DNA of 20,951 nucleotides from Alphaproteobacteria bacterium (lineage in GTDB: Bacteria > Pseudomonadota > Alphaproteobacteria > RF32 > CAG-239). Where the stretch lies: assembly GCA_017557925.1 (NCBI GenBank), contig JAFYWO010000026.1:1-20951 (forward strand). Reading direction: 5' to 3'. Numbering within the stretch: position 1 is the first letter of the stretch; each line of letters begins with the position of its first letter. The notes below the pieces were generated by a model, which made no database searches, was not told where the DNA came from, and saw nothing but the letters and a program-made list of their open reading frames with translations. Shown piece by piece: positions 301 to 13,649 of this stretch. The position numbers were made by a program, and so were the translations under genes.

Positions 301-2064
301 TTAGTTTTTTATTCCAAAATTCTTTAAAAGATTTTCTCTTTGAACACTGACATCAAAATTCGGTTTGACATTTAATTGTGGAGCAACTCTTGAAATTATT
401 TTTCCACCTGTCGGACAAGCGTTCCATCCTGATGTAACATAACCGTATGTTTCTTTAATAGGTTTGGGGTCATCAATAATTACCATTAAAGAGTATTTTG
501 GGTCACTTGCCGGAAAAGCCGAAACAAAAGATGTTACATTTTTACCTTTTATATATTTTCCATTAACAATTTTATTGGCTGTTCCGGTTTTTCCTACAAC
601 CTCATAGCCTTCAATATTGGCGTTTTTAGCTGAACCTTGAATGACGACTTCACGAAGAAGTTTTCTCATATCTAAAGATGTTTGCATTGAGATAACTCGT
701 TTACTTTCTCTATTGGAACTTTCTCTTATTATGGTAGGAGGGGTATATATTCCTCCGTTTAAGATGGATGAGAATGCAGTTATTATATGTATCGGAGTTA
801 CGGATATTCCATAACCGTATGCTGTTGTTGCAACGGTATGTTCCTGCCATTGTTTTTCACTTCTGTAAATAGGAATTTCTCTTTCATTTATTTCCAAATT
901 TTTTATTTTTTCAAATAATCCTAAATTTTTGAAAAATCTTATCTGTAAATCTTTTCCTACTTTAAGCGCCATTTGGGCGGAAGCAATATTGGAGGAGTGA
1001 ATAAGGGTTTCTCCAACGCTCAACCATTTAGGCGGGACTCTGTAATCGGTAATTTTGAATCTTCCCATTTTAAGAGGTTTTCTTGCATCAAATCTGTCTG
1101 TTATTTTTATTTTTCCGCTATCAAGTCCGAGAGCTGTATTAAATACCTTAAAAACAGAACCTGCTTCATACACGCCTTGCGTTGCAAAATTAAATTTAAT
1201 ATCTTTATTTTTAAAATCTCGCTTATTTAAATCATAATCAGGAACAGAAGATAAAGCTATAATTTCTGAAGTTTTAATATCCATTAAAATAGCAGTAGCA
1301 CGTTCTGCCATAAATTTTTCTTTTGCTTTGATTAACTCATCACGAATTGCGTATTGAACACCCAAATCAATAGTCAGTTGTAAATCTTTTGTAGAAGAAC
1401 TTAAGCGATTGTTTAATGATTTTTCAAGTCCGGAAATGCCAATATTATCAATATCAGTATTTCCTAAAACGTGAGCTAATAATTCTTTTTGGGGATAAAC
1501 TCTTGTTTCACTTTCTTCAAATTCTAACTCAGGAAAGCCCAATGCATTAACTTTTGCTTGTTGGAAAGGTGAAATGTTGCGTTTTAGATAAGCGAAACTG
1601 GATTTTTTGGTTAGTTTTTCTAAAAAAACATCATAACTTATGTCGTTAAAAATGTTATGAAGTTTTTTCGCTATTTCTTCTGCATTACTGACTTTTTTTG
1701 GATTACATAATAAATTCACAGTAGGGAGATTGGTTGCAACAACAACTCCGTTTCTGTCGGTAATGTTTGCTCTGTGAACAGGAGAAGATGCTCTGATTTT
1801 TGGGCGATAATATGTTATTTCTTCTTTATCAAATTGTATTCCGTCAACTAAACAAACATTAAAAATTCTAAATATGATGATAGAATATATAATAACAAAT
1901 ATCGCAATAACTAACATTATGCGAGAACGACAAATGTTAACGGATTTATCTTCTGTTTCCCATCCAAATCTGCTTGGTGAAAAATATATTTCTTGTCCGG
2001 GAACATAAGAAAATGTAGGCTTTTTCTTTGATAAACTTAACTTTAGCACCATTTTACCATTCAA
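301..2064 (-). CDS. ftsI: Peptidoglycan D,D-transpeptidase FtsI (PBP3), septal class B PBP
   Basis: Septal transpeptidase that cross-links peptidoglycan at the division site, anchored in the inner membrane with its catalytic domain in the periplasm. A cytoplasmic N-terminus is followed by one membrane segment (about 49-68), then the PBP dimerisation region beginning near RASSPVHRANITDRNG (91-106). The three penicillin-binding motifs are all present: SVFK with nucleophile Ser303, SSN at 357-359, and KTG at 492-494. The length of 587 residues is normal. The start is uncertain: the longest frame begins with TTG at 2062-2064, three bases after the ftsL stop, while an in-frame ATG lies four codons later (2050-2052). 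Neither has a strong ribosome binding site. It is the last gene of the mraZ-rsmH-ftsL-ftsI run; murE, the usual next gene, is absent. No convincing terminator follows. Confidence 0.96.
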   Translation of the reverse strand: MNGKMVLKLSLSKKKPTFSYVPGQEIYFSPSRFGWETEDKSVNICRSRIMLVIAIFVIIYSIIIFRIFNVCLVDGIQFDKEEITYYRPKIRASSPVHRANITDRNGVVVATNLPTVNLLCNPKKVSNAEEIAKKLHNIFNDISYDVFLEKLTKKSSFAYLKRNISPFQQAKVNALGFPELEFEESETRVYPQKELLAHVLGNTDIDNIGISGLEKSLNNRLSSSTKDLQLTIDLGVQYAIRDELIKAKEKFMAERATAILMDIKTSEIIALSSVPDYDLNKRDFKNKDIKFNFATQGVYEAGSVFKVFNTALGLDSGKIKITDRFDARKPLKMGRFKITDYRVPPKWLSVGETLIHSSNIASAQMALKVGKDLQIRFFKNLGLFEKIKNLEINEREIPIYRSEKQWQEHTVATTAYGYGISVTPIHIITAFSSILNGGIYTPPTIIRESSNRESKRVISMQTSLDMRKLLREVVIQGSAKNANIEGYEVVGKTGTANKIVNGKYIKGKNVTSFVSAFPASDPKYSLMVIIDDPKPIKETYGYVTSGWNACPTGGKIISRVAPQLNVKPNFDVSVQRENLLKNFGIKN

Positions 2065-2067
2065 TAC

Positions 2068-2427
2068 TTATCTTTCAGAGTTAGCAAGTATTCTTAAAGA
2101 ATCTTTGTTCTTTGCAAACATTGTAGGATTCTCAAACAACTCGCCCTCTAATGGTAATGCAGAATAGTTAATAATTTGTTCAGGTTTTATAAAATCTAGC
2201 GAAATATATTTACCTGCTAAACTTTTTAATCTTTCGGGATTGTTAAGTTCACTCCAATCCGCTTCCAAAATATGAATATCGCGAATATCATTTCTTATAT
2301 CGCTATTGATTTGTGCTAATTCTTTTTCTAAATTTTGCACATCATTAGTTAGCACAAAATAGTATGCACCAATAACAAAAGTAAACATAATCCACAAAAC
2401 AGATATAGCGGTTTTTACATTACTCAT
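2068..2427 (-). CDS. ftsL: Cell division protein FtsL (alphaproteobacterial type)
   Basis: Small bitopic division protein, 119 residues, expected to form the FtsQLB complex and to recruit or activate FtsW-FtsI. A short cytoplasmic tail leads into a single membrane segment (about 7-27), then a predicted coiled coil (about 30-55, rich in E, L, I and N). The stretch ADWSELNNPERLKSLAGKY (56-74) is characteristic of alphaproteobacterial FtsL. The last 40 residues are low in recognisable features. It starts one base after the rsmH stop, with AAAGGA about nine bases before its ATG, and stops three bases before the longest ftsI frame, so translation is probably coupled through the cluster. Identity rests on gene order plus this motif, since FtsL proteins diverge quickly. 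Confidence 0.88.
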   Translation of the reverse strand: MSNVKTAISVLWIMFTFVIGAYYFVLTNDVQNLEKELAQINSDIRNDIRDIHILEADWSELNNPERLKSLAGKYISLDFIKPEQIINYSALPLEGELFENPTMFAKNKDSLRILANSER

Positions 2428-2428
2428 A

Positions 2429-3358
2429 TTATTTTTCCTTTCTTTTTATAGCATATCTTAATTTTGCGGAACGAGACCGCGGATTTGTGTTGTGTTCCGA
2501 TTCGCAGGGTGTGATTGCTTTAGATGCAAAAGAAAATATTTTATTTTCATCTGTTTTTGTTTCGCAATTTTTACCATATTTTGAAGAATGAACTTTTTTG
2601 GAGGCATTATCATTAAAGTAAAATTTAACAATTCTGTCTTCTAAAGAGTGAAAATCTACAACAACAATCCTTCCGCCATCTTTTACTATATCAGATGCAC
2701 CTTTTAGACCATTTTTAAGTTGATTTAACTCATCATTAACAGCGATTCGGATTGCTTGAAAAGTTCTGGTTGCAGGGTCAATTTGACCAAACTTCTTTGG
2801 TAATACGGAATAAATAATTTCAGCAAGCTCCGTTGTTGTTGTGATTTGTTTGTTTTTGCGATACAGAACAATTTGATGAGCTATTTGTCTGGATTTTTTT
2901 TCTTCTCCGTATGCGTATATCAAATTTGCAAGCTCTTCTTCTTCCATTGTGTTAACAATATCAGATGCCGTAGTGCCTTTCATAGACATTCTCATATCAA
3001 GTTCAGCCTCTTTACTAAAAGAGAACCCTCTGAAATCATCATCTAATTGCATAGATGAAACGCCTATATCAAAAACAACACCATCAACCTTTTCATTAAC
3101 TAAAGAAGAAATGTCACCAAAAGTACCGGCTCTAAAATCAAATCTGTTTCCATAAATACTTTTTAGCTCATTAGCTCTACTTACAACACTTGGATCTCTA
3201 TCTATAGCTATAAGTTTGCAATTTCTTGCATTAAGGATAGCCTCACTGTATCCACCGTTTCCAAAAGTAGCATCTACATATACACCGTTGTCTTTTATAT
3301 CTAAATTTTCAATAACTTCTTTAAGCATAACGGGAATGTGACGTGTTTTACTTGTCAT
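2429..3358 (-). CDS. rsmH: 16S rRNA m4C1402 methyltransferase RsmH (MraW)
   Basis: S-adenosylmethionine-dependent enzyme that N4-methylates C1402 of 16S rRNA in the ribosomal P site. Family motifs are visible: HIPVMLKEV near the N-terminus (7-15), the SAM-binding DATFGNGG (29-36), AIDRDP (51-56), VVFDIGVSS (94-102), FSFSKEAELDMRM (112-124) and a later RTFQAIRIAVNDEL. The 309-residue length is typical. An upstream in-frame ATG exists at 3362-3364, but the AGGAG ribosome binding site lies too close to it and is about seven bases before the ATG at 3356-3358, so the latter is preferred. This start overlaps the end of mraZ by 11 bases, indicating translational coupling. The cluster is probably controlled from the operator and promoter upstream of mraZ. 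Confidence 0.96.
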   Translation of the reverse strand: MTSKTRHIPVMLKEVIENLDIKDNGVYVDATFGNGGYSEAILNARNCKLIAIDRDPSVVSRANELKSIYGNRFDFRAGTFGDISSLVNEKVDGVVFDIGVSSMQLDDDFRGFSFSKEAELDMRMSMKGTTASDIVNTMEEEELANLIYAYGEEKKSRQIAHQIVLYRKNKQITTTTELAEIIYSVLPKKFGQIDPATRTFQAIRIAVNDELNQLKNGLKGASDIVKDGGRIVVVDFHSLEDRIVKFYFNDNASKKVHSSKYGKNCETKTDENKIFSFASKAITPCESEHNTNPRSRSAKLRYAIKRKEK

Positions 3359-3821
3359 TATCATTCTCCTTTAGTTTTAAAGACGGACGAGACTGTTTTA
3401 CTTTTTCTCTAATACGAGCTTCTTCTTTTGCCCAGTTTTCTTCGCTCCAAATTTGAAATTTGCGACCTTTGCCGACAAAAACAGCATTATCTTTGATTTC
3501 GGCGTGGGCTAATAGTTTTTCTGTTAAAACAATACGTCCTGTGCTATCAAAACTAAAACGCTTTGCATCTCCAAAAATAAGATTGGTCAAATCATCTTGG
3601 TCTTCAGAAAAGAAGTCTGTTGAATTTTCAATATCTGTTGCCAGTTTTTCTAAAAGCTCTTCTGTACATCCTTCTATGCAAGGAGATGTTAAACTTCTGT
3701 AACAAACAATTTCTGTAGATAAATCTTTAACTATTGCGCGATAATCTGAAGGTAGAGAAACACGCCCTTTAGCGTCTACCTTATTGATTATTGTATCTAA
3801 AAATAAAAAACTTTTGCGCAT
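3348..3821 (-). CDS. mraZ: Transcriptional regulator MraZ
   Basis: DNA-binding regulator of the division and cell wall cluster; in characterised bacteria it binds short direct repeats upstream of its own gene. It has 157 residues with two SpoVT-AbrB-like halves. The first carries DAKGRVSLP (16-24), the second DSTGRIVL (92-99), matching the duplicated DxxGRhhLP motif of MraZ. The C-terminal tail is charged and Lys-rich. The ATG at 3819-3821 has a weak AAGAGA ribosome binding site. It is the first gene of the run into rsmH, ftsL and ftsI, and its 3' end overlaps rsmH. Four TGGNA repeats at exact 10-base spacing lie 33 to 67 bases upstream of the start, which strongly suggests autoregulation. 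Confidence 0.96.
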   Translation of the reverse strand: MRKSFLFLDTIINKVDAKGRVSLPSDYRAIVKDLSTEIVCYRSLTSPCIEGCTEELLEKLATDIENSTDFFSEDQDDLTNLIFGDAKRFSFDSTGRIVLTEKLLAHAEIKDNAVFVGKGRKFQIWSEENWAKEEARIREKVKQSRPSLKLKENDNDK

Positions 3822-3853
3822 AGTAGTTTTCTCTTATGAATTATGTATATATA

Positions 3854-3888
3854 TGGTATAACATGGTATTTCGTGGGAATCAATGGAA
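3854..3888. promoter_or_regulatory. MraZ operator: four TGGNA repeats at 10-base period over the mraZ promoter
   Basis: Reading the plus strand, TGGTA (3854-3858), TGGTA (3864-3868), TGGGA (3874-3878) and TGGAA (3884-3888) recur with exactly five bases between units. Known MraZ operators are direct TGGGN-type pentamers with five-base spacers. The repeats lie on the strand opposite to the mraZ message. A candidate minus-strand promoter is embedded in them: TTGATT (3878-3883), 17-base spacer, TATACC (3855-3860). Bound MraZ would therefore cover the polymerase site. The repeat pattern is seen directly; binding is inferred from the family. Confidence 0.75.
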
Positions 3889-3977
3889 AAATGTAAGTTT
3901 TTGCAAAAATTTTTGGTGATTTTTATTTTTACTTTTAAAACAATAGGTTGGAAATATTTGAAATGTTTATAAAAAAA

Positions 3978-4015
3978 TAAAAACAAAAAAAAGCACCAAC
4001 AGTGTTGGTGCTTTT
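3978..4015 (-). terminator. Rho-independent terminator of the fabD-fabG operon
   Basis: A perfect 12-base-pair stem (AAAAGCACCAAC, 3989-4000, with GTTGGTGCTTTT, 4004-4015) has a three-base loop. On the minus strand it is followed by a long T-rich tract. It lies about 20 bases after the fabG stop and separates fabD-fabG from the mraZ cluster. Confidence 0.93.
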
Positions 4016-4036
4016 CGGTAATCTCTTAAAAGAGAA

Positions 4037-4774
4037 TTAAATCATAGCCATACCGCCGTTAACATGTAATGTTTGACCGGTAATGTATTGAGCTTCATCA
4101 GAAGCTAAAAATGCAACTGCATTTGCAATATCTTGAGCTTCTCCAAGTTTTCCCTCAGGAATTTTGCTTAAAAGTTGAGCTTTAACATCATCAGGTAAAA
4201 CATCTGTCATAGGTGTTCTGATGAAGCCAGGAGCGATAGAGTTTACGGTAACACCTCTTGAACCAACTTCTTGAGCTAAACATTTGTTCATAGCTATCAT
4301 ACCGGCTTTTGAAGCAGAGTAATTAGCTTGTCCTGGGTTACCCATAACACCAACAACAGAAGCGATACCGATGATGCGACCATATCTTCTCTTCATCATT
4401 CCTCTGATGGCAGCTTTAGCAAGTTTAAAACCTGCGGATAGGTTAACGTCTAAAACTAATTGCCAATCTTCGTCGCTCATACGCATAAACAAATTATCAC
4501 GAGTAAGTCCGGCGTTGTTTACTAAAATATCAATACGGCCCATTTTTTCTTCAACGTTTTTAACTAAATTATTAACGTCTTCTGAATTTGTAAGGTTTGC
4601 AACAAAATACTCAACTCTGTCGCCTAATTCTGCTTTTAATTTTTCCATTGGTTCTGCACGCATGTCTGTTAATGCAAGAGTAGCACCTTGTGCGTGTAAA
4701 GTGCGTGCTATTTTATCACCTAAACCTCCGGCAGCACCGGTGATTAGCGCAATTTTTCCATCTAACTTAAACAT
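4037..4774 (-). CDS. fabG: 3-oxoacyl-[acyl-carrier-protein] reductase FabG
   Basis: NADPH-dependent reductase of type II fatty acid synthesis in the cytoplasm, converting 3-oxoacyl-ACP to 3-hydroxyacyl-ACP. It is a classical short-chain dehydrogenase of 245 residues: nucleotide-binding TGAAGGLG (13-20), NNAG (86-89), active-site Asn111, Ser139, and the YSASK motif with Tyr152 and Lys156. PGFIRTPMT (182-190) and the C-terminal ITGQTLHVNGGMAM are typical of FabG. An AAGGA ribosome binding site lies about nine bases before the ATG, and the gene begins 24 bases after fabD, so the two are co-transcribed. A strong hairpin terminator follows. The common third gene, acpP, is not here. Confidence 0.96.
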   Translation of the reverse strand: MFKLDGKIALITGAAGGLGDKIARTLHAQGATLALTDMRAEPMEKLKAELGDRVEYFVANLTNSEDVNNLVKNVEEKMGRIDILVNNAGLTRDNLFMRMSDEDWQLVLDVNLSAGFKLAKAAIRGMMKRRYGRIIGIASVVGVMGNPGQANYSASKAGMIAMNKCLAQEVGSRGVTVNSIAPGFIRTPMTDVLPDDVKAQLLSKIPEGKLGEAQDIANAVAFLASDEAQYITGQTLHVNGGMAMI

Positions 4775-4798
4775 CTTATTTTTTCCTTTTCTAAAAAA

Positions 4799-5743
4799 TT
4801 ATAGATTTTTAGCTAATTCTTCAATGTCTTGAACAGAGTAAACAGATAAACAATTTACATCTTTCAAGCTACGTTTAGCCATACCGGAGAGAACTTTTCC
4901 TGCACCGAGTTCAACAAAGTCCGTAACGCCGTTTGCGCTCATAAAGTCCATTGTCTCTCTCCATCTTACGGTACCGGTAACTTGTTCAATCAAGTTTTTG
5001 ATTATATCTTGCTTATCTGTTTCAACATCAGCTAAAACATTAGCAATAATTGGTATTAGAGAATCTTTTGCTTCAACTTCCATAAATGCTCTTGCCATAG
5101 TTTCTGCAGCAGGTTGCATCAATGGACTGTGGAAAGGTGCGGAAACAGGCAATTTAAGACATCTTTTTGCTCCAAATTCAGAAGCAATTTCCACTGCTTT
5201 TTCTATTGCTTGTATGTGACCAGATAATACAACTTGTCCTTCGGAGTTATCATTGGCAGCAACACAGTAATGATTACCATCTTTGCAAGCATCTACTAAA
5301 GAATCTACATCCTTAAAAGATAATCCCAAAACTGCAGCCATACCGCCAACACCAACAGGAACAGCTTCTTGCATAGCATTACCACGTATACGCAATAGTC
5401 TTGCAGTGTCTGCTAAACTAAATACTCCGGCTGCACAGGCAGCAGAATATTCTCCCAAAGAGTGTCCGGCAACAAAACTGGCTTTATCTTTTAGAACAAT
5501 GCCAAAGTCTTTTTCTAATACTTTGACAACTGCCATAGATACAGCCATTAGCGCAGGTTGGGTGTTTGATGTTAAAGTTAAATCCAATTCAGGACCTTCA
5601 ACCATAACTTTATACAAATCTTGTCCTAAAGCATCGTTAACTTCATTAAAAACATCTCTTGCAGATGTGAAGTTTTCTGCTAATTCTTTCCCCATTCCTA
5701 CAAATTGAGAACCCTGACCAGGGAAAACAAATGCGTGTTTCAT
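4799..5743 (-). CDS. fabD: Malonyl-CoA:ACP transacylase FabD
   Basis: Transfers malonyl groups from CoA to acyl carrier protein to supply fatty acid elongation. The 314-residue sequence has the N-terminal FVFPGQGSQ (5-13), the nucleophile elbow GHSLGEY with Ser95, the carboxylate-binding Arg120 and the catalytic His205 in SAPFHSP. An in-frame ATG four codons upstream (5753-5755) was rejected: the GGAG ribosome binding site overlaps it and is ideally spaced for the ATG at 5741-5743, which gives the usual FabD N-terminus. It is the first gene of a two-gene operon with fabG. It is divergent from ftsK; the roughly 180 bases between them are very AT-rich. A TTGACT at 5797-5802 on the minus strand could be a -35 box, but no convincing -10 follows at the right distance. 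Confidence 0.96.
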   Translation of the reverse strand: MKHAFVFPGQGSQFVGMGKELAENFTSARDVFNEVNDALGQDLYKVMVEGPELDLTLTSNTQPALMAVSMAVVKVLEKDFGIVLKDKASFVAGHSLGEYSAACAAGVFSLADTARLLRIRGNAMQEAVPVGVGGMAAVLGLSFKDVDSLVDACKDGNHYCVAANDNSEGQVVLSGHIQAIEKAVEIASEFGAKRCLKLPVSAPFHSPLMQPAAETMARAFMEVEAKDSLIPIIANVLADVETDKQDIIKNLIEQVTGTVRWRETMDFMSANGVTDFVELGAGKVLSGMAKRSLKDVNCLSVYSVQDIEELAKNL

Positions 5744-5925
5744 ACGTTTCTCCATTAAAATTATTTATGGATTAAAGCTAAAACAGTTCAACCTAAAGTC
5801 AAGATTTAAATAAAAGCGGTGTGTATAGCTTGTTGTTGTTTTATATATTTTACTGAATTTTAATATTTTATTTAAAATTTATTTTTATACTTTAAGAAAA
5901 TTTGTATGCTAAAAAAGAGGTTAAA

Positions 5926-8268
5926 ATGGCTAAAAAAAGTAATAAGAATACATCAAAATCCGAAACACCATCATATTTAAAAAGTATAGTAAGCACTATT
6001 TTAGGTGGTTGTTTGATTGCGTATGGAATATGTTTGGTTTTATCTATGATTGGATATACTCCGACAGATGAATCTTTTAATGTATCAAATTCTGATAAAA
6101 TAAATAATTTTATGGGAAAATTTGGTTCTTACGCATCTGATTTAATTGTGAATAGTTTTGGTATAGCTATTTTAATATTTTTAATTCCTCTTTTGGTTTG
6201 GGGATATTTGTTGATACGTCATCACCATATTATAGAATTAAAAATTCGTATGTTTGCCGTAGCGTTAGGTGTAATTACTTTGTCCGGTACATTATACCAA
6301 ACATTATCTTTACCTTTAGAAAAAATAAATTTGTTAGGTAAATTTAGCCATATATTACCAGATTTTTTAACAAAAACATTTGATGCTTGGGGAGCAAAAG
6401 AATACTCCGGTCATTTATCTCTATTTGTTTTAGCGCTTATTTCTATAATGTCTTTTAATTTAGCTTTGGGTATAACTTTTAAGCATTGGTATAATATTAC
6501 TTCAAAGGTCTGCAAATTTATTTATATAACAATAAAACATTTACATTCTTTTGTTATGAAGCTTATAAATCCTAATTCTTTATATGAAAGTAACAAGGTA
6601 ACTGAAAGTGTAAATATAAGAACAAATAAAGAAGTAAAAAAGGAACCGACATTCAATAATGAAGAAGCATTACTAATTAAAGAAACTCCAAAACAAGAGA
6701 AAGCACCAATAAAGAAAGTGTCTGAAAATGTTTCTTCAATGCCTAAAATAAAAATTAAAGAACCAAACGGTTATAATTATCCGTCAATAAATCTATTAAG
6801 TCGTCCTAAAGGTAAAATAGGCTCAAGTGTTAATGAAAAAGAATTAAATGAAACTGCTTTAGCTCTTGAAGAAGCATTGAGTAATTATGGTATAAATGGT
6901 AAAATCGTAAAAGTAAGTCCGGGACCTGTTGTTACATTGTATGAATTAGATCCGGCACCGGGAACTAAAACTTCTCGTATTATATCTCTTGCGGATGATA
7001 TTGCTCGCTCTATGGCAGTTGGTTCTGTTCGTATTGCAACCGTTACCGGTTCAACAACAGTAGGTATAGAAGTGCCAAACAAGACAAGAGAGACGGTTTG
7101 GGTTAGAGATTTGTTGGAAGATACGAAGTTTACCGATAGTAAACACGCCCTAAATATTGTATTAGGTAAAGATATAGGTGGTAAAAACGTATATGCGGAT
7201 TTGGCTAAAATGCCACACTTGCTAATAGCAGGAACAACAGGTTCTGGTAAATCTGTTGGTGTTAATGCTATGATTTTATCGCTTCTTTATCGTATGACTC
7301 CTGATGAATGTAAATTTATGCTTATAGATCCTAAGATGTTGGAATTTTCTATGTATAACGGTATACCGCATTTGTTGACTCCGGTTATAACCGATCCGGC
7401 AAAAGCCGTAATCGGTTTGAAGTGGGCTGTAAGGGAAATGGAAGAACGTTATAGAGCAATGGCTTGTTTATCTGTTAGAAATATTACAGGTTATAATCTA
7501 AAACTAAAAGAAATGGAAGAAAAAGGCGAAAAACCTTCTAGAACAATTCAAGTAGGTTTTGACCCTGAAACAGGAAAACCAAAATACGAAAACCAACTTT
7601 TGGATACTAAACCTTTACCATATATTGTGATAGTTGTAGATGAGGCAGCAGACCTTATGATGGTTGCCGGTAAAGAAGTTGAAGCAGCTATTCAACGTTT
7701 GGCTCAAATGGCTCGTGCAGCAGGTATACATCTTATTATGTCTACACAACGTCCATCTGCAGATGTTATTACCGGAACCATAAAATCTAACTTCCCGACA
7801 AGAATTAGTTACCAAGTTACTTCAAAAATTAACAGTAGAACAATTTTGGATGAACAAGGTGCGGAACAACTACTTGGCAGAGGTGATATGTTATATATGC
7901 CTGCAGGACTTCGTCCACAACGTGTCCACGGCGGTTTTGTTCCTGATGAAGAAGTTGAGGCAGTAATGAACTTCTTAAAAACACAAGGAGCACCTAAATA
8001 TGTTGACGGAGTTACCGAAGGAGAATTAGATATAAAAAATAAAGACAATGGAGCTTTGTTTGATAAGACGTCTTTAGGCGGTGGCTCAAAAGATGATTTA
8101 TATGAGGAAGCCGTAAATATAGTAAGACAAGATAAACGTCCTACAATAAGTTACATTCAACGTCGTTTAGGTATTGGCTATAACAAGGCAGCATCACTTA
8201 TAGAACGTATGGAAGAAGAGGGTATTGTAACTAAAGCAGATGGCAATAACAAGCGAGAAGTTATCTAA
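5926..8268 (+). CDS. ftsK: DNA translocase FtsK
   Basis: Septum-located, ATP-driven DNA pump that clears and unlinks chromosome ends at division. The 780 residues contain an N-terminal membrane domain with about four hydrophobic segments (roughly 21-42, 71-98, 108-128, 162-184), a short Lys/Glu-rich linker (about 225-280), and the motor domain. Walker A is GTTGSGKS (436-443); Walker B is IVIVVDEAADL (567-577); STQRPSADVITG (606-617) is also diagnostic. A C-terminal winged-helix gamma domain (about 723-775), which reads polar KOPS-type sequences, is complete. The linker is short compared with E. coli FtsK. The longer TTG-initiated frame from 5902 was rejected because AGAGG lies five bases before the ATG at 5926. 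No terminator is visible before the convergent gene at 8337. Confidence 0.96.
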   Translation: MAKKSNKNTSKSETPSYLKSIVSTILGGCLIAYGICLVLSMIGYTPTDESFNVSNSDKINNFMGKFGSYASDLIVNSFGIAILIFLIPLLVWGYLLIRHHHIIELKIRMFAVALGVITLSGTLYQTLSLPLEKINLLGKFSHILPDFLTKTFDAWGAKEYSGHLSLFVLALISIMSFNLALGITFKHWYNITSKVCKFIYITIKHLHSFVMKLINPNSLYESNKVTESVNIRTNKEVKKEPTFNNEEALLIKETPKQEKAPIKKVSENVSSMPKIKIKEPNGYNYPSINLLSRPKGKIGSSVNEKELNETALALEEALSNYGINGKIVKVSPGPVVTLYELDPAPGTKTSRIISLADDIARSMAVGSVRIATVTGSTTVGIEVPNKTRETVWVRDLLEDTKFTDSKHALNIVLGKDIGGKNVYADLAKMPHLLIAGTTGSGKSVGVNAMILSLLYRMTPDECKFMLIDPKMLEFSMYNGIPHLLTPVITDPAKAVIGLKWAVREMEERYRAMACLSVRNITGYNLKLKEMEEKGEKPSRTIQVGFDPETGKPKYENQLLDTKPLPYIVIVVDEAADLMMVAGKEVEAAIQRLAQMARAAGIHLIMSTQRPSADVITGTIKSNFPTRISYQVTSKINSRTILDEQGAEQLLGRGDMLYMPAGLRPQRVHGGFVPDEEVEAVMNFLKTQGAPKYVDGVTEGELDIKNKDNGALFDKTSLGGGSKDDLYEEAVNIVRQDKRPTISYIQRRLGIGYNKAASLIERMEEEGIVTKADGNNKREVI

Positions 8269-8336
8269 GTAATAAGCGCTTATAAAGCATCAGAAGTTGT
8301 ATATTAATGACTTTTATGTGTAAAGGAAAAAGATAA

Positions 8337-9701
8337 TTATTTTTTTCTCTTTAAGGCCTTGCTTACTTTTTCAATACTGTTGCTAACGATAGTGATTTCT
8401 CTTTGCATATTATTTGTTTCATAAATTTTTAGAGCAGATTCATAATGCTCAATAGCTTCACGATATGATGATTTGTCTTTTGCAATCTTACCCATATTAT
8501 AGTATACATTAGCTATGTTTTCTTGTATTTTTGCCCATATTATAGGATGTAGTTCTTTTTCATAAATAGATTGTTTATTTCTATAGCACTGAATTGCCAG
8601 TCTTGAAATATCATTACTTTTGGAGAACAGTCCTAATAAAGATAAGTAATAACCTAAATATCCTTCTATCTTAGACCAAAGTTCCGGAAATGTAATTTCG
8701 GTATAAGTTTTTTCTGCAATTCTTAAATAAGTAACTGCATTTCTTAAACCCTGCATTCCATCTGCATATTTATTATTTGCAAACTTCCAATATCTGAAAT
8801 TAAGCTGTGCTAATTTAAATGAAATTAAGGCAAAATCATAAGGATAGTTGTATTGGTCTATATATTTTTGTGCTGTTTTATAGTTATTTATAGCTTTATT
8901 ATACATATTCCATTGTTGTTCTGCTTCTATATCTTGATTGATAGCCATTTCATATAACTGTCCGATATTTTTATACATACACCCTAAATGCACATTTTGT
9001 GTAATTTGTTTTTTTTGCAAAAAGGCATTTTTATATAATTCAAGATTTGTTTCAAAAGAGTCTTTTGTTATTTTTTTCTGTTCATAGCTCATATAAATTA
9101 AACTAACTATGTTTAAAATATAAGGAGAATATATTATATCGTCATTTTGTAATAAATTACACTCGTTAAAATAGGATAAAACTTTTCTTAACATTTTTTT
9201 CTTTAGTTGTTTTAAGTTTACTCTCTGTTCACTGATAGAAGCAACTATAGCCCCTACAACAAGGTAATAAAATATATCCAAAGATACATTACCCGGTTCA
9301 AAATATTTTATCGGTATATAAAGGCTATCTAATAAAGAATAAGAAATATTATCCAAATCGGTATAAGCATTAGCCGTTTGAAAGTTAAGCCTGATATTTT
9401 TATCTTCTTGATAACCCCAAACAACAACGTCAGCATCCAGTTTTTGTAAAATTTTATTTCCGGTATCAGATAAATCAAAAAAATGCCTTCCTTGTAAATT
9501 CAAAAATTTTTTATCAAATGTTTCGGTAAAATAATAGACTTCAAAACTTGAATTTTCACGTAGAAGATGCGTTAAAAAAGAACCGTAATTATGATTGCCA
9601 TACTCAACAAACTCAGTAACCACAACTTTTAGTTTTGTTGTATTTGATTGTTTATTCTTGTTTGGTGTTTCTTTTCCAAATAAAACCTTTATAAAATCCA
9701 T
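8337..9701 (-). CDS. Cytoplasmic TPR protein with TolB-like N-terminal domain, function unknown
   Basis: A 454-residue protein without signal peptide. Residues about 24-108 look like a small alpha/beta domain: a first strand LKVVVTEFVEY, a later FEVYYF, and the signature DADVVVWGYQEDKNIRLNF (89-107). This pattern recalls TolB-N/FlgO-type domains, where a strand is followed by an ADxVVxG turn. From about 165 to the end the sequence is helical with TPR-like repeats. The last units share a motif of about 43-residue period: FPELWSKIEGYLGYY (338-352) and HPIIWAKIQENIANVYYNMG (385-404), then a canonical YREAIEHYESALKIYE (413-428). Such repeats are common in Rhodospirillales proteins and mediate protein contacts. 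An AGGGG ribosome binding site lies eight bases before the ATG. It is last in the run rsmB, membrane protein, TPR protein, so its partner may be that membrane protein. No specific function can be assigned. Confidence 0.85.
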   Translation of the reverse strand: MDFIKVLFGKETPNKNKQSNTTKLKVVVTEFVEYGNHNYGSFLTHLLRENSSFEVYYFTETFDKKFLNLQGRHFFDLSDTGNKILQKLDADVVVWGYQEDKNIRLNFQTANAYTDLDNISYSLLDSLYIPIKYFEPGNVSLDIFYYLVVGAIVASISEQRVNLKQLKKKMLRKVLSYFNECNLLQNDDIIYSPYILNIVSLIYMSYEQKKITKDSFETNLELYKNAFLQKKQITQNVHLGCMYKNIGQLYEMAINQDIEAEQQWNMYNKAINNYKTAQKYIDQYNYPYDFALISFKLAQLNFRYWKFANNKYADGMQGLRNAVTYLRIAEKTYTEITFPELWSKIEGYLGYYLSLLGLFSKSNDISRLAIQCYRNKQSIYEKELHPIIWAKIQENIANVYYNMGKIAKDKSSYREAIEHYESALKIYETNNMQREITIVSNSIEKVSKALKRKK

Positions 9702-9705
9702 TATA

Positions 9706-9873
9706 TTACCCCTGAATGTCTTTTTTATATTTGCTTTTATTTGTTGATTTGGTTGATTTTATTTTTTGTTTGGTTTTAGTGTTCTTTGTTGTTTTTGCTT
9801 TTTTTTCTTCAATTAAAACATCCTCTTTTATTTTTTCAACTTTATTAAAGTTTTCATTATTTGTATCTTGTTT
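9706..9873 (-). other. Lys-rich 55-codon open frame in the -1 frame: probable true C-terminus of the upstream membrane protein
   Basis: Beginning at the four-A run 9871-9874 (minus strand), the frame one base back from that of the 9828-10907 gene stays open for 55 codons and stops at 9706-9708. The product is extremely Lys/Thr-rich (for example EEKKAKTTKNTKTKQ), like the charged cytoplasmic tails of membrane proteins. Its stop codon lies inside the AGGGGTAA that serves as the TPR gene's ribosome binding site, four bases before that ATG, which is normal operon spacing. By contrast the annotated frame ends 126 bases short of the TPR gene. One extra base in the A run would make a 400-residue fusion. 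This may be a real mutation, a sequence error, or recoding; no canonical slippery heptamer is present. Confidence 0.55.
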
Positions 9874-10907
9874 TCAAACATTCCTTTAACGGCTTTTGTT
9901 CCCCATTTTGTAACAGAGAAGAACAGTAACGGTTGAGCATCGCCCTTTATGATTTGGAGTAACCATAAATTTATTGCAATGGAAAAAATAAACAAAGCAA
10001 TACGTTCTTCTGCAACAACTTGAAAAGTTGCAAGCAGGGTATCAATAAAAAATATCTTTAAAATACCATTTGCGACAGGCAAAGCATATTCTCCATCATT
10101 TGATATTTTATAATAAGACGTATGCATATAAGGAATTTCTACAATTTGATTTAAAATTATACGATTGTATAAAGTAAAGAAAACTTCCGTAAGCAGATAT
10201 GATGATGCTATAATCATAGACACTTCCGCATATTCAACACTTGAATACAACATCATAGATGCAAGAACAAAACCTAAAGCATTCCAACCGCCGTTTGTAA
10301 TAACTAATTTTTCTGGTGGCCAACTATAGAAAATAAATGCAAGCATAACTCCCAAATATGCTAAAGCACAGTATGCTAACAATAAGGGAATAGCTTCAAA
10401 ATAGGCTAATACTACAATAGCAATGCAAACAGCCATAAATTGCATTGTAGCAATACCTCCTATACCATTAAGTAACCCCATGCCTTTAGTTATGGTAAAT
10501 ATAATAATAGCCACTATAAGACGTTCTTGCCAAATAGATAAATTACCTAAAGACAAACAAAAATCATCAGGTTGAATAAATGACATAATTAAAGAACTGA
10601 TAAGAATAACAATATTTGTAATTATTTTCAGGTCAATCAAATAACAAAAATAAATAGCACCGCCAAAGATAAAGGGAAGAACAAAATCCATAAAATTATA
10701 ATTCTTAATGTTGTCATATTGAGAGCTCGAAAATAAAAAAACACCCAATCCGCCAAGCAACATTGTCCCAAAAACCGGAAGCAAAGGATCTAAATCTTTA
10801 TCATATTCATTATTGTATATGTCCGAAGGAATGCGACTCAAGAAAAAATTTGCAACACCAAAACATACAAGCATTGCAATTATTCCGAATAAAACAACTT
10901 GATTCAT
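9828..10907 (-). CDS. Polytopic membrane protein, degenerate MraY/WecA (PNPT) family homologue, probable pseudoenzyme
   Basis: A 359-residue protein with about ten hydrophobic segments. I align it by eye with WecA/MraY phosphoglycosyltransferases: PVFGTMLLGG (44-53) matches their PLxGG loop, LIDLK (90-94) the DDxxxxxxK loop, GLLNGIGGI (144-152) the NLxDGxDGL motif, SWPPEKLVITNGGWNALGF (195-213) the PAxxFMGDxGSxxLGF motif, and YNRI...PYMHTSYYKI the YRR...HIHH motif. The catalytic aspartates are changed: N147 and G150 in the first motif and N205 in place of the FMGD aspartate. The second aspartate of the DD pair is Leu93. Transferase activity is therefore unlikely. The last 14 residues (after Glu345) look out of frame; see the Lys-rich frame at 9706-9873. 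The start follows rsmB by 46 bases with AGGA about six bases before the ATG. Membrane protein certain; family assignment inferred without a search. Confidence 0.7.
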   Translation of the reverse strand: MNQVVLFGIIAMLVCFGVANFFLSRIPSDIYNNEYDKDLDPLLPVFGTMLLGGLGVFLFSSSQYDNIKNYNFMDFVLPFIFGGAIYFCYLIDLKIITNIVILISSLIMSFIQPDDFCLSLGNLSIWQERLIVAIIIFTITKGMGLLNGIGGIATMQFMAVCIAIVVLAYFEAIPLLLAYCALAYLGVMLAFIFYSWPPEKLVITNGGWNALGFVLASMMLYSSVEYAEVSMIIASSYLLTEVFFTLYNRIILNQIVEIPYMHTSYYKISNDGEYALPVANGILKIFFIDTLLATFQVVAEERIALFIFSIAINLWLLQIIKGDAQPLLFFSVTKWGTKAVKGMFENKIQIMKTLIKLKK

Positions 10908-10953
10908 TTTTCCTCCTAAAAATTTAACATAAGAGCATTATATATAAATAATG

Positions 10954-12210
10954 TTAATTTTTTCTTTGCAAACAGGCAACAAAAAAACCATCAGTTCCAT
11001 TATAATCTTCCAAGTGTTGCGGTAAAATTCTTAAAAAACCTTCCTTTGTAACACTTTTTTCTGCTCCTTTTATTTTTATAGGTTTAATCACAAAATCTTT
11101 ATTATTTTCTAAAAATTTATAAATTTGTTTTTCGCCTTCTTCTTTTGATAAAGAACAGGTCGCATATACTAATAACGAATCTTTATGTAAAAATAATTTT
11201 GCTCTGTTTAGTATTCTTTTTTGTAGATTCGCCATCTTTTTTACATCAGTTAGATTTTTTGTATGAATTATTTCCGGATGTCTTCTGAAAGTTCCGGTAG
11301 CAGAGCACGGTGCATCAACAAGAATTATATCAAATTTCTCATTACTTTCAAATTCTGTGGCATCTTGACATTTTGTTTCTAAATTTTTTTCCAACTTCAA
11401 GCGTTTAATGTTTTCTTTTAAAACTTCTAATCGTTCTATTGATACATCAATTGCTAAAACGTTTGCTCCGTAAGATAAAAGTTGAGCGGTTTTCCCGCCG
11501 GGAGCAGCGCATAAATCAAGAATTTTTAGGTTTTTTAATTCTTTTCCAATAGCTTTAACAGCCATTGATGAAGAAGAGTCTTGAACCCAAAAATCTCCTT
11601 CATTAAAACCTGAAAGAGAAGATACTTTTGTAGAAGATGGTAATCTATAACTCCCAGTCCAAAGCTTAACGGCATTTTCAAAGGAAGGCTCTTTATTTGG
11701 TTTATAGGTTAAATCAAGCATAGGTTCTATATTTGCAAATTTTTGCATTTCGTCAATTTCTTCTTTTGTATAGTCTGTTTTTAGAAGTTCTAAAAATTGT
11801 TTACCAAAATAAGAGGTTTTTCTGTTTTTTAAGATTGCATCTTTGTTTCGGGCTATGTTTCTAAGAACAGCATTAACAAAATTTGCCCCAAATTTATCGT
11901 TTTTTTTCTTTGCAACTTCTACATAAGAGTTTATTACGGCATAAACAGCAGTATCTAAAAATAAGATTTCAACAGCCCCAAGATATAATATATATTCTAA
12001 AATATCTTGTTTTTTGGGGATTCTTTTTTTTACGAATACAGGTAAAACTTCTTCCTTAATGAAACTTAAATTGCGAAAACCCGTCATCATTAACATATTA
12101 AAAAAAGCTCTGTTGCTTTCTTTAACTTCATTTTTTATAGAACTCAAAGAAATTTTTTCTAAAAGAATACTTCTGAAAGTATCTACATAAAAAAATCTAT
12201 CATTACACAT
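10954..12210 (-). CDS. rsmB: 16S rRNA m5C967 methyltransferase RsmB
   Basis: SAM-dependent enzyme forming 5-methylcytosine at position 967 of 16S rRNA. The 418 residues comprise an N-terminal NusB-like RNA-binding helical domain (about 5-130, including FVNAVLRNIAR) and a C-terminal Rossmann methyltransferase domain. SAM motif LDLCAAPGGKT spans 231-241. The two RNA m5C cysteines are present: DAPCSATGTFRRHPE with Cys302 and the ATCSLSKEEGE motif with Cys352. The end GTDGFFVACLQRK is typical of the family. AAGG lies about six bases before the ATG. It is first in the run with the membrane protein and TPR genes downstream, and divergent from tolC across 86 bases. Activity and substrate follow from the family. 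Confidence 0.92.
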   Translation of the reverse strand: MCNDRFFYVDTFRSILLEKISLSSIKNEVKESNRAFFNMLMMTGFRNLSFIKEEVLPVFVKKRIPKKQDILEYILYLGAVEILFLDTAVYAVINSYVEVAKKKNDKFGANFVNAVLRNIARNKDAILKNRKTSYFGKQFLELLKTDYTKEEIDEMQKFANIEPMLDLTYKPNKEPSFENAVKLWTGSYRLPSSTKVSSLSGFNEGDFWVQDSSSSMAVKAIGKELKNLKILDLCAAPGGKTAQLLSYGANVLAIDVSIERLEVLKENIKRLKLEKNLETKCQDATEFESNEKFDIILVDAPCSATGTFRRHPEIIHTKNLTDVKKMANLQKRILNRAKLFLHKDSLLVYATCSLSKEEGEKQIYKFLENNKDFVIKPIKIKGAEKSVTKEGFLRILPQHLEDYNGTDGFFVACLQRKN

Positions 12211-12238
12211 TAAAAACCTTTTTTAAATTTAATTGTTT

Positions 12239-12268
12239 ATTAAATGAATTTGCTCTAATCTTAATCAA
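12239..12268 (-). promoter_or_regulatory. Candidate promoter for the rsmB run
   Basis: On the minus strand TTGATT (12263-12268) and TTTAAT (12239-12244) are 18 bases apart, about 28 bases upstream of the rsmB start. The gap is AT-rich and shared with the divergent tolC, so chance matches are likely. Confidence 0.33.
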
Positions 12269-12296
12269 AATAATTATCTATGTAAAGGATAAAAAT

Positions 12297-13649
12297 ATGT
12301 CATTTTACCGAATAGCTGCATTGGTTTTACTTTGTTCAATCGGTTTTAATACGACAACTAATGCAAACCAAGAAAAAAGTTTTTATGAATTAAATTCTCT
12401 GACAGATTGTATTGATAAAAATATTGTAGCAACTCAAGAAGTGTCTTTAATAGATTTAATAAAAATAGGAATTTGTAATAATCCCGGATTAAAAGCAGAT
12501 TATATGTATTATATGGAAAATAAAGAAAATTTGGATTCAGCAAAATCTGAATATTTTCCAAATATAGATTTATCTGTAGATGTAAATACATACACAAATA
12601 AAAATCAAGGTCGGAATCATACAGAAAATAATCCTTATAAACTTAATTTGGGGTTATCAATGTTGTTATATGATTTTGGAGGAAGAACAGCAAGAATAGA
12701 TAGCTTTAAATCATACTTAAAAAATTCCGGTTTTGAGTATAATAAGTCTTTACAAGATTTAATATTGTCTATTCATACGTCATATTTTAAATTGTTAGGA
12801 GCAAAAGAAGATTTGACAAGTGCAAAAGCTAACGAGGCAATGTATAAAAAGTCATACGATGAAGCAAGTCGTAAATATGATGTCGGAATGGTAGCTCTAA
12901 ATGATAAACTTCAAACCCAAACAAGCTACGAACAATCAAAATTAAAAGTAATTGAAACTTCAAATTATGTAAAACTGTATGAAGGAGAGCTTGCTATAAT
13001 CTTAAATTTATCACCTTTAACAACTTTTAAGTTGAAAACACCTCCGAAAGACAGAGATTTAACTGCTTTGGATGAAAAGGATACTCTTGATAAAATAATA
13101 GGACAAGCAATAAAAACAAGAGCAGAGATAAAAGCACAAGTTGAAGTGGTTAATCAGACTAATGCTAAACTAAGAGATTTACGTTCTTCTCGTTATGGTT
13201 CTTTTTCCTTAACAGCTTCAAGCGGATATAATAATTCTTGGAATGACAATAAATCATATATAAAAGATAATCAAATAGGTATAAACTATCGCTTGCCTTT
13301 GTTTACGGGGTTTGATACATCACACAAAATAACATCAGCTAAAAACAAAAGACAAAAGGAGCGTTATTTATTGGATGAAGTAAAAAATCAAATAAAAAAT
13401 GAAGTTTGGAGTGCATATCATAATTACAAGACTGCTTTAAAATCATACGAAGTAAGTAAAAAACTCTTAAAAAGTGCTCAAGAAAATGAAAAGGTGGCAT
13501 TCAAGTCTTATGAAATAGGTAAGACGGATATTATAAATCTTTTAACAGCAGAATCTCAATTAGCTGATGCCAGAGATACTTTAGTCAATGCTTTTTATAA
13601 TGTTTTAATTAGTAAAGCAACATTATATCGTTCAATAGGGAGGTTTTAA
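12297..13649 (+). CDS. tolC: TolC-family outer-membrane efflux channel
   Basis: Outer-membrane factor of a tripartite exporter: a trimeric beta-barrel with a long periplasmic alpha-helical tunnel. The 450 residues begin with a cleavable signal peptide (hydrophobic about 6-17, likely cleavage after TTTNA near residue 23). Two structurally repeated halves follow. SLIDLIKIGICNNPGL (51-66) matches the first-helix motif of the family, and NLGLSMLLYDFGGR and GINYRLPLFTGF are the matching barrel strands of the two halves. The second half ends with the equatorial motif YEIGKTDIINLLTAESQL, typical of TolC. AAAGGAT is spaced six bases from the ATG. Its stop overlaps the start of the adaptor gene by one base (TAATG), so this channel is dedicated to the downstream MacAB-like pump. 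The exact promoter is not clear. Confidence 0.92.
   Translation: MSFYRIAALVLLCSIGFNTTTNANQEKSFYELNSLTDCIDKNIVATQEVSLIDLIKIGICNNPGLKADYMYYMENKENLDSAKSEYFPNIDLSVDVNTYTNKNQGRNHTENNPYKLNLGLSMLLYDFGGRTARIDSFKSYLKNSGFEYNKSLQDLILSIHTSYFKLLGAKEDLTSAKANEAMYKKSYDEASRKYDVGMVALNDKLQTQTSYEQSKLKVIETSNYVKLYEGELAIILNLSPLTTFKLKTPPKDRDLTALDEKDTLDKIIGQAIKTRAEIKAQVEVVNQTNAKLRDLRSSRYGSFSLTASSGYNNSWNDNKSYIKDNQIGINYRLPLFTGFDTSHKITSAKNKRQKERYLLDEVKNQIKNEVWSAYHNYKTALKSYEVSKKLLKSAQENEKVAFKSYEIGKTDIINLLTAESQLADARDTLVNAFYNVLISKATLYRSIGRF

Follow-up and report, generated by a model that had tools for sequence, protein, structure and literature searches.

The window considered here – positions 1–20,951 of contig JAFYWO010000026.1 (assembly GCA_017557925.1), from an alphaproteobacterial genome of 1.32 Mb that is 72% complete – carries on its minus strand, between rsmB and a gene for a TPR protein, a single open reading frame of 359 residues running from 10907 to 9828; a plus-strand reading of 9828–10907 was rejected, being full of stops. 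Its product, called PNPT* below, had been described from the letters alone (the sequence-only reading) as a degenerate membrane protein of the MraY/WecA fold, and that observation holds. The profile named for the purpose, PF00953 (Glycos_transf_4), matches PNPT* at 28.9 bits, only just above its cut-off of 27, and some related copies lie below it (e.g. that of genome G026, 23.5 bits). No NCBIfam curated model matched PNPT* at E ≤ 0.1, a PHROGs scan gave no match for PNPT* or the TPR protein, and phmmer of PNPT* against the PDB returned nothing at E ≤ 10; a profile of the PNPT* family matched E. coli MraY there, at only E 0.014. The predicted model adopts an MraY/DPAGT1-type fold, as the sequence-only reading had expected, with 11 membrane-type helices by our reading. 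By descent and fold, PNPT* belongs to the PF00953/PNPT superfamily. Among named records, the closest are metagenome assemblies of Alphaproteobacteria from the colon of roe deer and of water buffalo, together with SIG44. Names such as MraY, FtsL and RsmH for other genes of the window are read from translations, unless Pfam-supported.

A family profile was run against 100 genomes of the order (handles beginning with G, C and L denote genomes, contigs and loci). It found a full-length PNPT* copy in 96 of the 99 genomes of the same family, at E 8.8e-34 or better, and none in G022, G127 and G128. The 107 family loci reduce to 103 distinct copies once a fragment at a contig end (L020) and three duplicate loci are dropped, though the neighbourhood counts given below (n = 107) still include them; the degenerate PNPT proteins of G054 (L117) and G033 (L065) are left out of all counts owing to their unsure position in the tree. 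Canonical enzymes were represented by 12 rows for the seven catalytic columns, 13 for further residues and 26 for information content, each set holding one G035 protein twice (L089, L116) and hence 11, 12 and 25 distinct proteins.

The places of the active-site motifs can be located in the family (Table 1). Aspartate occupies neither DD column in any of the 103 copies, and the sequence-only reading's choice of D92-L93 as the DD pair gives way to another placement in the alignment, C88-Y89-L-I-D92. The first Asp of DGxDG survives in 2/103, with Asn – N147 in the window – in 77; the loop histidines are kept in one copy (first) and in none (second), the latter position being Thr in 86 (T263). The Asn of NxxDG is retained once (G144 in the window), and the first Asn of NxxNxxDGxDG in three copies (K141). 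Nine copies keep the basic residue found nine positions past DD, and no copy keeps GGG in the first cytoplasmic loop. Counted over the seven catalytic residues, 58 copies have none, 40 have one and five have two. Judged from its sequence, then, PNPT* lacks what characterises an active polyprenyl-phosphate N-acetylhexosamine-1-phosphate (HexNAc-1-P) transferase, namely the DD pair, NxxNxxDGxDG, the FMGD Asp and HxxH.

Table 1. Features of the PNPT* locus, in window coordinates.
Feature	Coordinates	Strand	Basis
PNPT*, catalytically degenerate (by its motifs) WecA/WbpL-branch membrane protein, 359 aa	9828..10907	-	open frame, PF00953, alignment, tree, model
D65, conserved anew (96% of 103), in a loop predicted to be periplasmic	10713..10715	-	alignment
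Place of the DD motif, C88-Y89-L-I-D92	10632..10646	-	alignment
Place of NxxNxxDGxDG, residues 141–152, with K141, G144, N147, G150	10452..10487	-	alignment
P174, conserved anew (97% of 103), in a loop predicted to be periplasmic	10386..10388	-	alignment
Place of FMGD, residues 200–208, with N205	10284..10310	-	alignment
E225, conserved anew (99% of 103), at the end of transmembrane helix 8 predicted to be periplasmic	10233..10235	-	alignment
Place of the HxxH loop, residues 259–266 (contains MHTSYY), with T263	10110..10133	-	alignment
W315, newly conserved (99% of 103), last membrane-type helix	9963..9965	-	alignment
C-terminal helix 328–358, partly of low predicted confidence (pLDDT), predicted cytoplasmic tail	9834..9926	-	model
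TPR partner, 454 aa, N-terminal alpha/beta domain and TPR superhelix, directly downstream of PNPT*	8337..9701	-	
rsmB (16S rRNA methyltransferase), conserved upstream neighbour, 46 bp from PNPT*	10954..12210	-	

How much these losses say about activity depends on which residues are gone. The catalytic roles of D117, D118, D265 and H324 in Aquifex aeolicus MraY have been summarised (PMC4790310), and the report on human DPAGT1 describes DD-pair mutants that keep at least 10% of activity and an Asp252Asn mutant five times more active, along with changes at Asn185, Lys125 and His302 that abolish nearly all activity (PMC6218659); Asn185, Lys125 and Asp252 were matched to our columns by motif position, Asp252 being set against the FMGD Asp, so that this correspondence is itself inferential. 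Because the DD mutants and Asp252Asn remain active, the loss of aspartates alone is no proof of inactivity, and this part of the sequence-only argument is insufficient by itself, whereas its broader proposal – fold kept, active site lost, function retained – is well supported. Stronger evidence comes from the joint loss, in the alignment, of the Asn of NxxDG, the basic position following DD, the pair of loop histidines and GGG. The same tolerance of DPAGT1 (PMC6218659), together with the conserved replacements in the active-site loops at N147 and T263, could speak for a transferase whose active site has been rebuilt from other residues, but we consider this very improbable: the residues just listed are nearly always lost together, and conservation of the catalytic loops has dropped below that of the loops predicted as periplasmic.

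The gene is nonetheless maintained. Ratios of non-synonymous to synonymous substitution (dN/dS) were estimated for pairs of loci whose rsmB genes have dS < 1.2 (31 pairs), and for PNPT* where its own dS was < 1.5 (n = 20). For PNPT* the median is 0.13 (range 0.07–0.28), with all 20 usable pairs far below 1; rsmB gives 0.11 (31 pairs) and the TPR gene 0.03 (20 pairs). PNPT* is under purifying selection, which supports a retained function. That the protein diverges rapidly – the window copy is only 15–27% identical to copies from other genera – might suggest a decaying relic, a view that is scarcely credible given this selection, the intact single frames of 332–429 residues in every copy except one contig-edge fragment, and the appearance of new near-invariant residues. 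As a separate observation, in the pairs L148/L155, L219/L071 and L174/L169 the dS of both PNPT* and an ApbA/PanE-like neighbour far exceeds that of rsmB (in L148/L155, rsmB dS is 0.71 and both other genes are saturated). This pattern suggests either that diverged alleles have been exchanged or that the region evolves fast locally.

With loop and helix borders set by us, and columns absent from the window protein skipped, the information content of the cytoplasmic loops is 3.14 bits for the canonical set (26 rows) and drops to 1.35 for the 103 PNPT* copies, whereas the predicted periplasmic loops stay level (1.76 and 1.83 bits); the two shifts differ by 1.86 bits (permutation p 0.0001). Most intramembrane helices are less conserved than in the canonical set, and the C-terminal helix 328–358 is more conserved.

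Where the family comes from was addressed with a quick maximum-likelihood tree of 64 proteins, including 27 of the 103 PNPT* copies, in which long branches call for caution. The 27 copies form one clade with a support of 99 in the Shimodaira–Hasegawa-like approximate likelihood-ratio test (SH-aLRT). At the split between the WecA side and MraY (SH-aLRT 100) this clade falls on the former, as a sister of the sampled canonical WecA/WbpL enzymes (support 89 for these) rather than within them. On this tree PNPT* is thus placed on the WecA/WbpL side, with MraY as a cousin and not an ancestor, and it falls outside the MraY clade; the same genome encodes a separate, ordinary canonical MraY as its second PF00953 protein (129.9 bits). 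PNPT* shares with WecA/WbpL – undecaprenyl-phosphate HexNAc-1-phosphate transferases, such as those of alphaproteobacterial surface-glycan loci – its side of the tree, PF00953, fold and loop order, and bridging relatives adjoin an SDR epimerase gene; it differs from them in lacking the catalytic residues and the greater part of the motif in the first cytoplasmic loop, and in having rsmB and the TPR gene as constant neighbours. Two further degenerate PNPT proteins sit on long branches and could not be placed. One of these loci, L117 (G054:C48, 11938-13269; VVMNKVPGL, LLNKAA), lies outside any rsmB/TPR neighbourhood and is perhaps a case of independent loss.

Several genomes bridge the gap to canonical enzymes. 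In G156, from another family of the class, rsmB is accompanied by genes for an ApbA/PanE-like protein, an asparagine-synthase-like protein, a near-canonical PNPT and an SDR epimerase; that PNPT (L115; G156:C86, 6552-7703) has DGING instead of DGIDG, its remaining motifs being intact. G033, from another family of the same order, combines a degenerate PNPT with ApbA/PanE-like and SDR genes and has a canonical enzyme on another contig, and in G035 a canonical enzyme with a C-terminal extension adjoins an SDR gene. This synteny suggests that PNPT* descends from a cassette of the surface-glycan type.

A census of PF00953 in the 100 order genomes found one strong match (at least 112.9 bits) in 97 of the 99 family genomes, the exceptions being G012 and G030; the remaining matches of those family genomes sit at the PNPT* locus, and a second strong match beside the MraY-type one was found in none of the 99. 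Nine of the strong matches were checked in the tree as MraY, further setting PNPT*, on its separate branch, apart from that enzyme. The monotopic initiating transferase (PF02397) occurs in only 8 of 83 order genomes, and with one strong MraY-type match and so few PF02397 matches, MraY looks like the sole intact enzyme of its kind in most of these bacteria; judging from these two enzyme families, we infer that the glycan pathway once served by the PNPT* ancestor is gone in most of them. MraY would accordingly be a natural client of a left-over lipid-binding fold, and PNPT* might bind undecaprenyl phosphate or pair with MraY and so regulate the only intact superfamily member in most genomes. The preserved fold fits this idea, as does the position of the locus in the window's genus, beside ftsK and genes read as the dcw cell-wall cluster, yet ftsK or dcw genes adjoin none of 12 loci from other genera and the intramembrane helices have mostly lost conservation, so that we regard it as unlikely. 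In the window, the stretch 301-8268 beside the PNPT* block holds ftsK and genes read as mraZ, rsmH, ftsL, ftsI, fabD and fabG; at the other-genus loci L067 and L070 the nearest large gene resembles leuS by eye.

A lipid transporter or flippase, e.g. for undecaprenyl phosphate, could also be built on this polytopic fold: polyprenyl lipids are bound by its known members, and residues predicted on the periplasmic side are conserved. PF04018, which we take to be a family with an undecaprenyl-phosphate flippase-type role, matched none of 50 order genomes, which would leave room for such a substitute. However, DedA-type proteins (PF09335), presumably able to serve as flippases, have matches in 49 of these 50 genomes (40 above the cut-off), leaving no clear gap for PNPT* to fill – the gap-filling idea was rejected on this ground – and such a job needs no TPR partner; we hold the transporter reading to be very improbable.

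The family's gene order is rsmB, then – in 59 of 107 loci, the window not among them – an ApbA/PanE-like gene, then PNPT* and the TPR gene. rsmB is present in 105/107 loci and was not found on the short stretches of L020 and L026; the TPR gene lies directly downstream of PNPT* in 106/107, the contig ending in L180. The 126-bp gap between PNPT* and the TPR gene in the window is the widest among the loci. A scan of 8200-12400 gave 18 promoter-like sites versus 24.0 in shuffles and three terminator-like sites versus 1.3, none of the latter between the genes.

Of the roles raised in the sequence-only reading (a scaffold, a lipid-binding sensor or a partner of MraY), these constant neighbours favour the scaffold, and a lost active site combined with a kept fold and selection beside a partner gene suggests conversion into a non-catalytic membrane part. 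We therefore prefer, with a probability of roughly 0.55, to see PNPT* as a WecA/WbpL-branch pseudoenzyme that, without chemistry, anchors the TPR protein at the membrane or serves as its receptor there. Tree and synteny suggest that the ancestor of PNPT* was a polytopic polyprenyl-phosphate sugar-1-phosphate transferase belonging to this branch and encoded next to rsmB in a cassette of the surface-glycan type; in the forebear of this gut alphaproteobacterial family it apparently lost its nucleotide-sugar, metal and catalytic residues while the membrane fold stayed, as sequence and model suggest, and the gene apparently became fixed upstream of the TPR-protein gene, where it is now found. On the cytoplasmic side, the tail of PNPT* and its emptied face may hold the TPR adaptor, and the newly conserved, predicted periplasmic D65, P174, E225 and Q296 may, with W315, form a recognition side, perhaps still employing the polyprenyl groove; the pair would thereby connect something at the membrane or in the periplasm with the cytoplasm.

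Several observations weigh against this reading. Aspartate persists in 24/103 copies at the second Asp of DGxDG and in 23/103 at the FMGD Asp, so that of the three window residues singled out by the sequence-only reading, N147 stands in a largely Asn column and G150 and N205 in columns that still contain Asp. Two of the five predicted periplasmic loops, 112–124 (2.62 to 1.30 bits) and 222–229 (2.45 to 1.87), are on average less conserved than in canonical enzymes, and the sidedness of the loops is borrowed from MraY. In G033 a full-length TPR gene lies at the end of another contig and the degenerate PNPT precedes an SDR gene, so that the pairing may be younger than the degeneration, and adjacency could reflect shared regulation alone. 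Neither PNPT* nor the TPR gene is present in G022 and G128, but with only weak rsmB-like matches there, a gap in the assembly and a true loss are equally likely, and this joint absence was dropped as support. In G127 the TPR gene lies at a contig end and PNPT* may simply be unsequenced.

The ApbA/PanE-like gene allows a wider, more tentative view. The full GxGxxG is absent from its product in all 58 family loci compared and present in the two outgroup copies, and the one family copy scanned (L067) scored 18.6 and 13.1 bits, under the Pfam cut-offs; from the sequences compared (L067, L065, L115 and the 58 family loci) it is a probable second pseudoenzyme, so that two adjoining enzymes would have lost their motifs in the same lineage. 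It is possible, though we lean against it, that the whole surface-glycan initiation cassette turned non-catalytic – PNPT and ApbA/PanE-like proteins both becoming pseudoenzymes and SDR giving way to the TPR gene, with cyclic-nucleotide-binding domains in distant relatives – and became a transmembrane sensing or scaffolding unit, which would read the membrane or periplasmic side by means of a fold hitherto described as that of an enzyme. Such a domain stands at the N-terminus of the proteins at L230 (4287-6089) and L231 (4739-6550), whose C-terminal part is related to the TPR protein of the window.

Pseudoenzymes are familiar from other protein families. For the polyprenyl-phosphate transferase superfamily, a few word combinations tried in the open-access literature found no dead yet conserved member. 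The nearest case met there is OG0001207 of pseudomurein archaea, described as MraY/WecA-like, likewise long-branched and of unclear function, but archaeal (PMC11915815). EcpK of Myxococcus exopolysaccharide synthesis is also a pseudoenzyme in a surface-polysaccharide context, though as a tyrosine pseudokinase it is of another protein family and acts in a working pathway (PMC12004946), and DPAGT1 (GPT) differs from PNPT* as an active enzyme with a site for UDP-N-acetylglucosamine and Mg (PMC6218659). If the proposed role is correct, the polyprenyl-phosphate transferase fold can serve as a non-catalytic membrane module, and the series of near-canonical and degenerate relatives, which share parts of their neighbourhood, could reveal what the fold does without chemistry. 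A PF00953 match alone is, moreover, insufficient for naming a gene WecA or MraY. In PDB titles, members of the fold appear as targets of tunicamycin, muraymycin and capuramycin.
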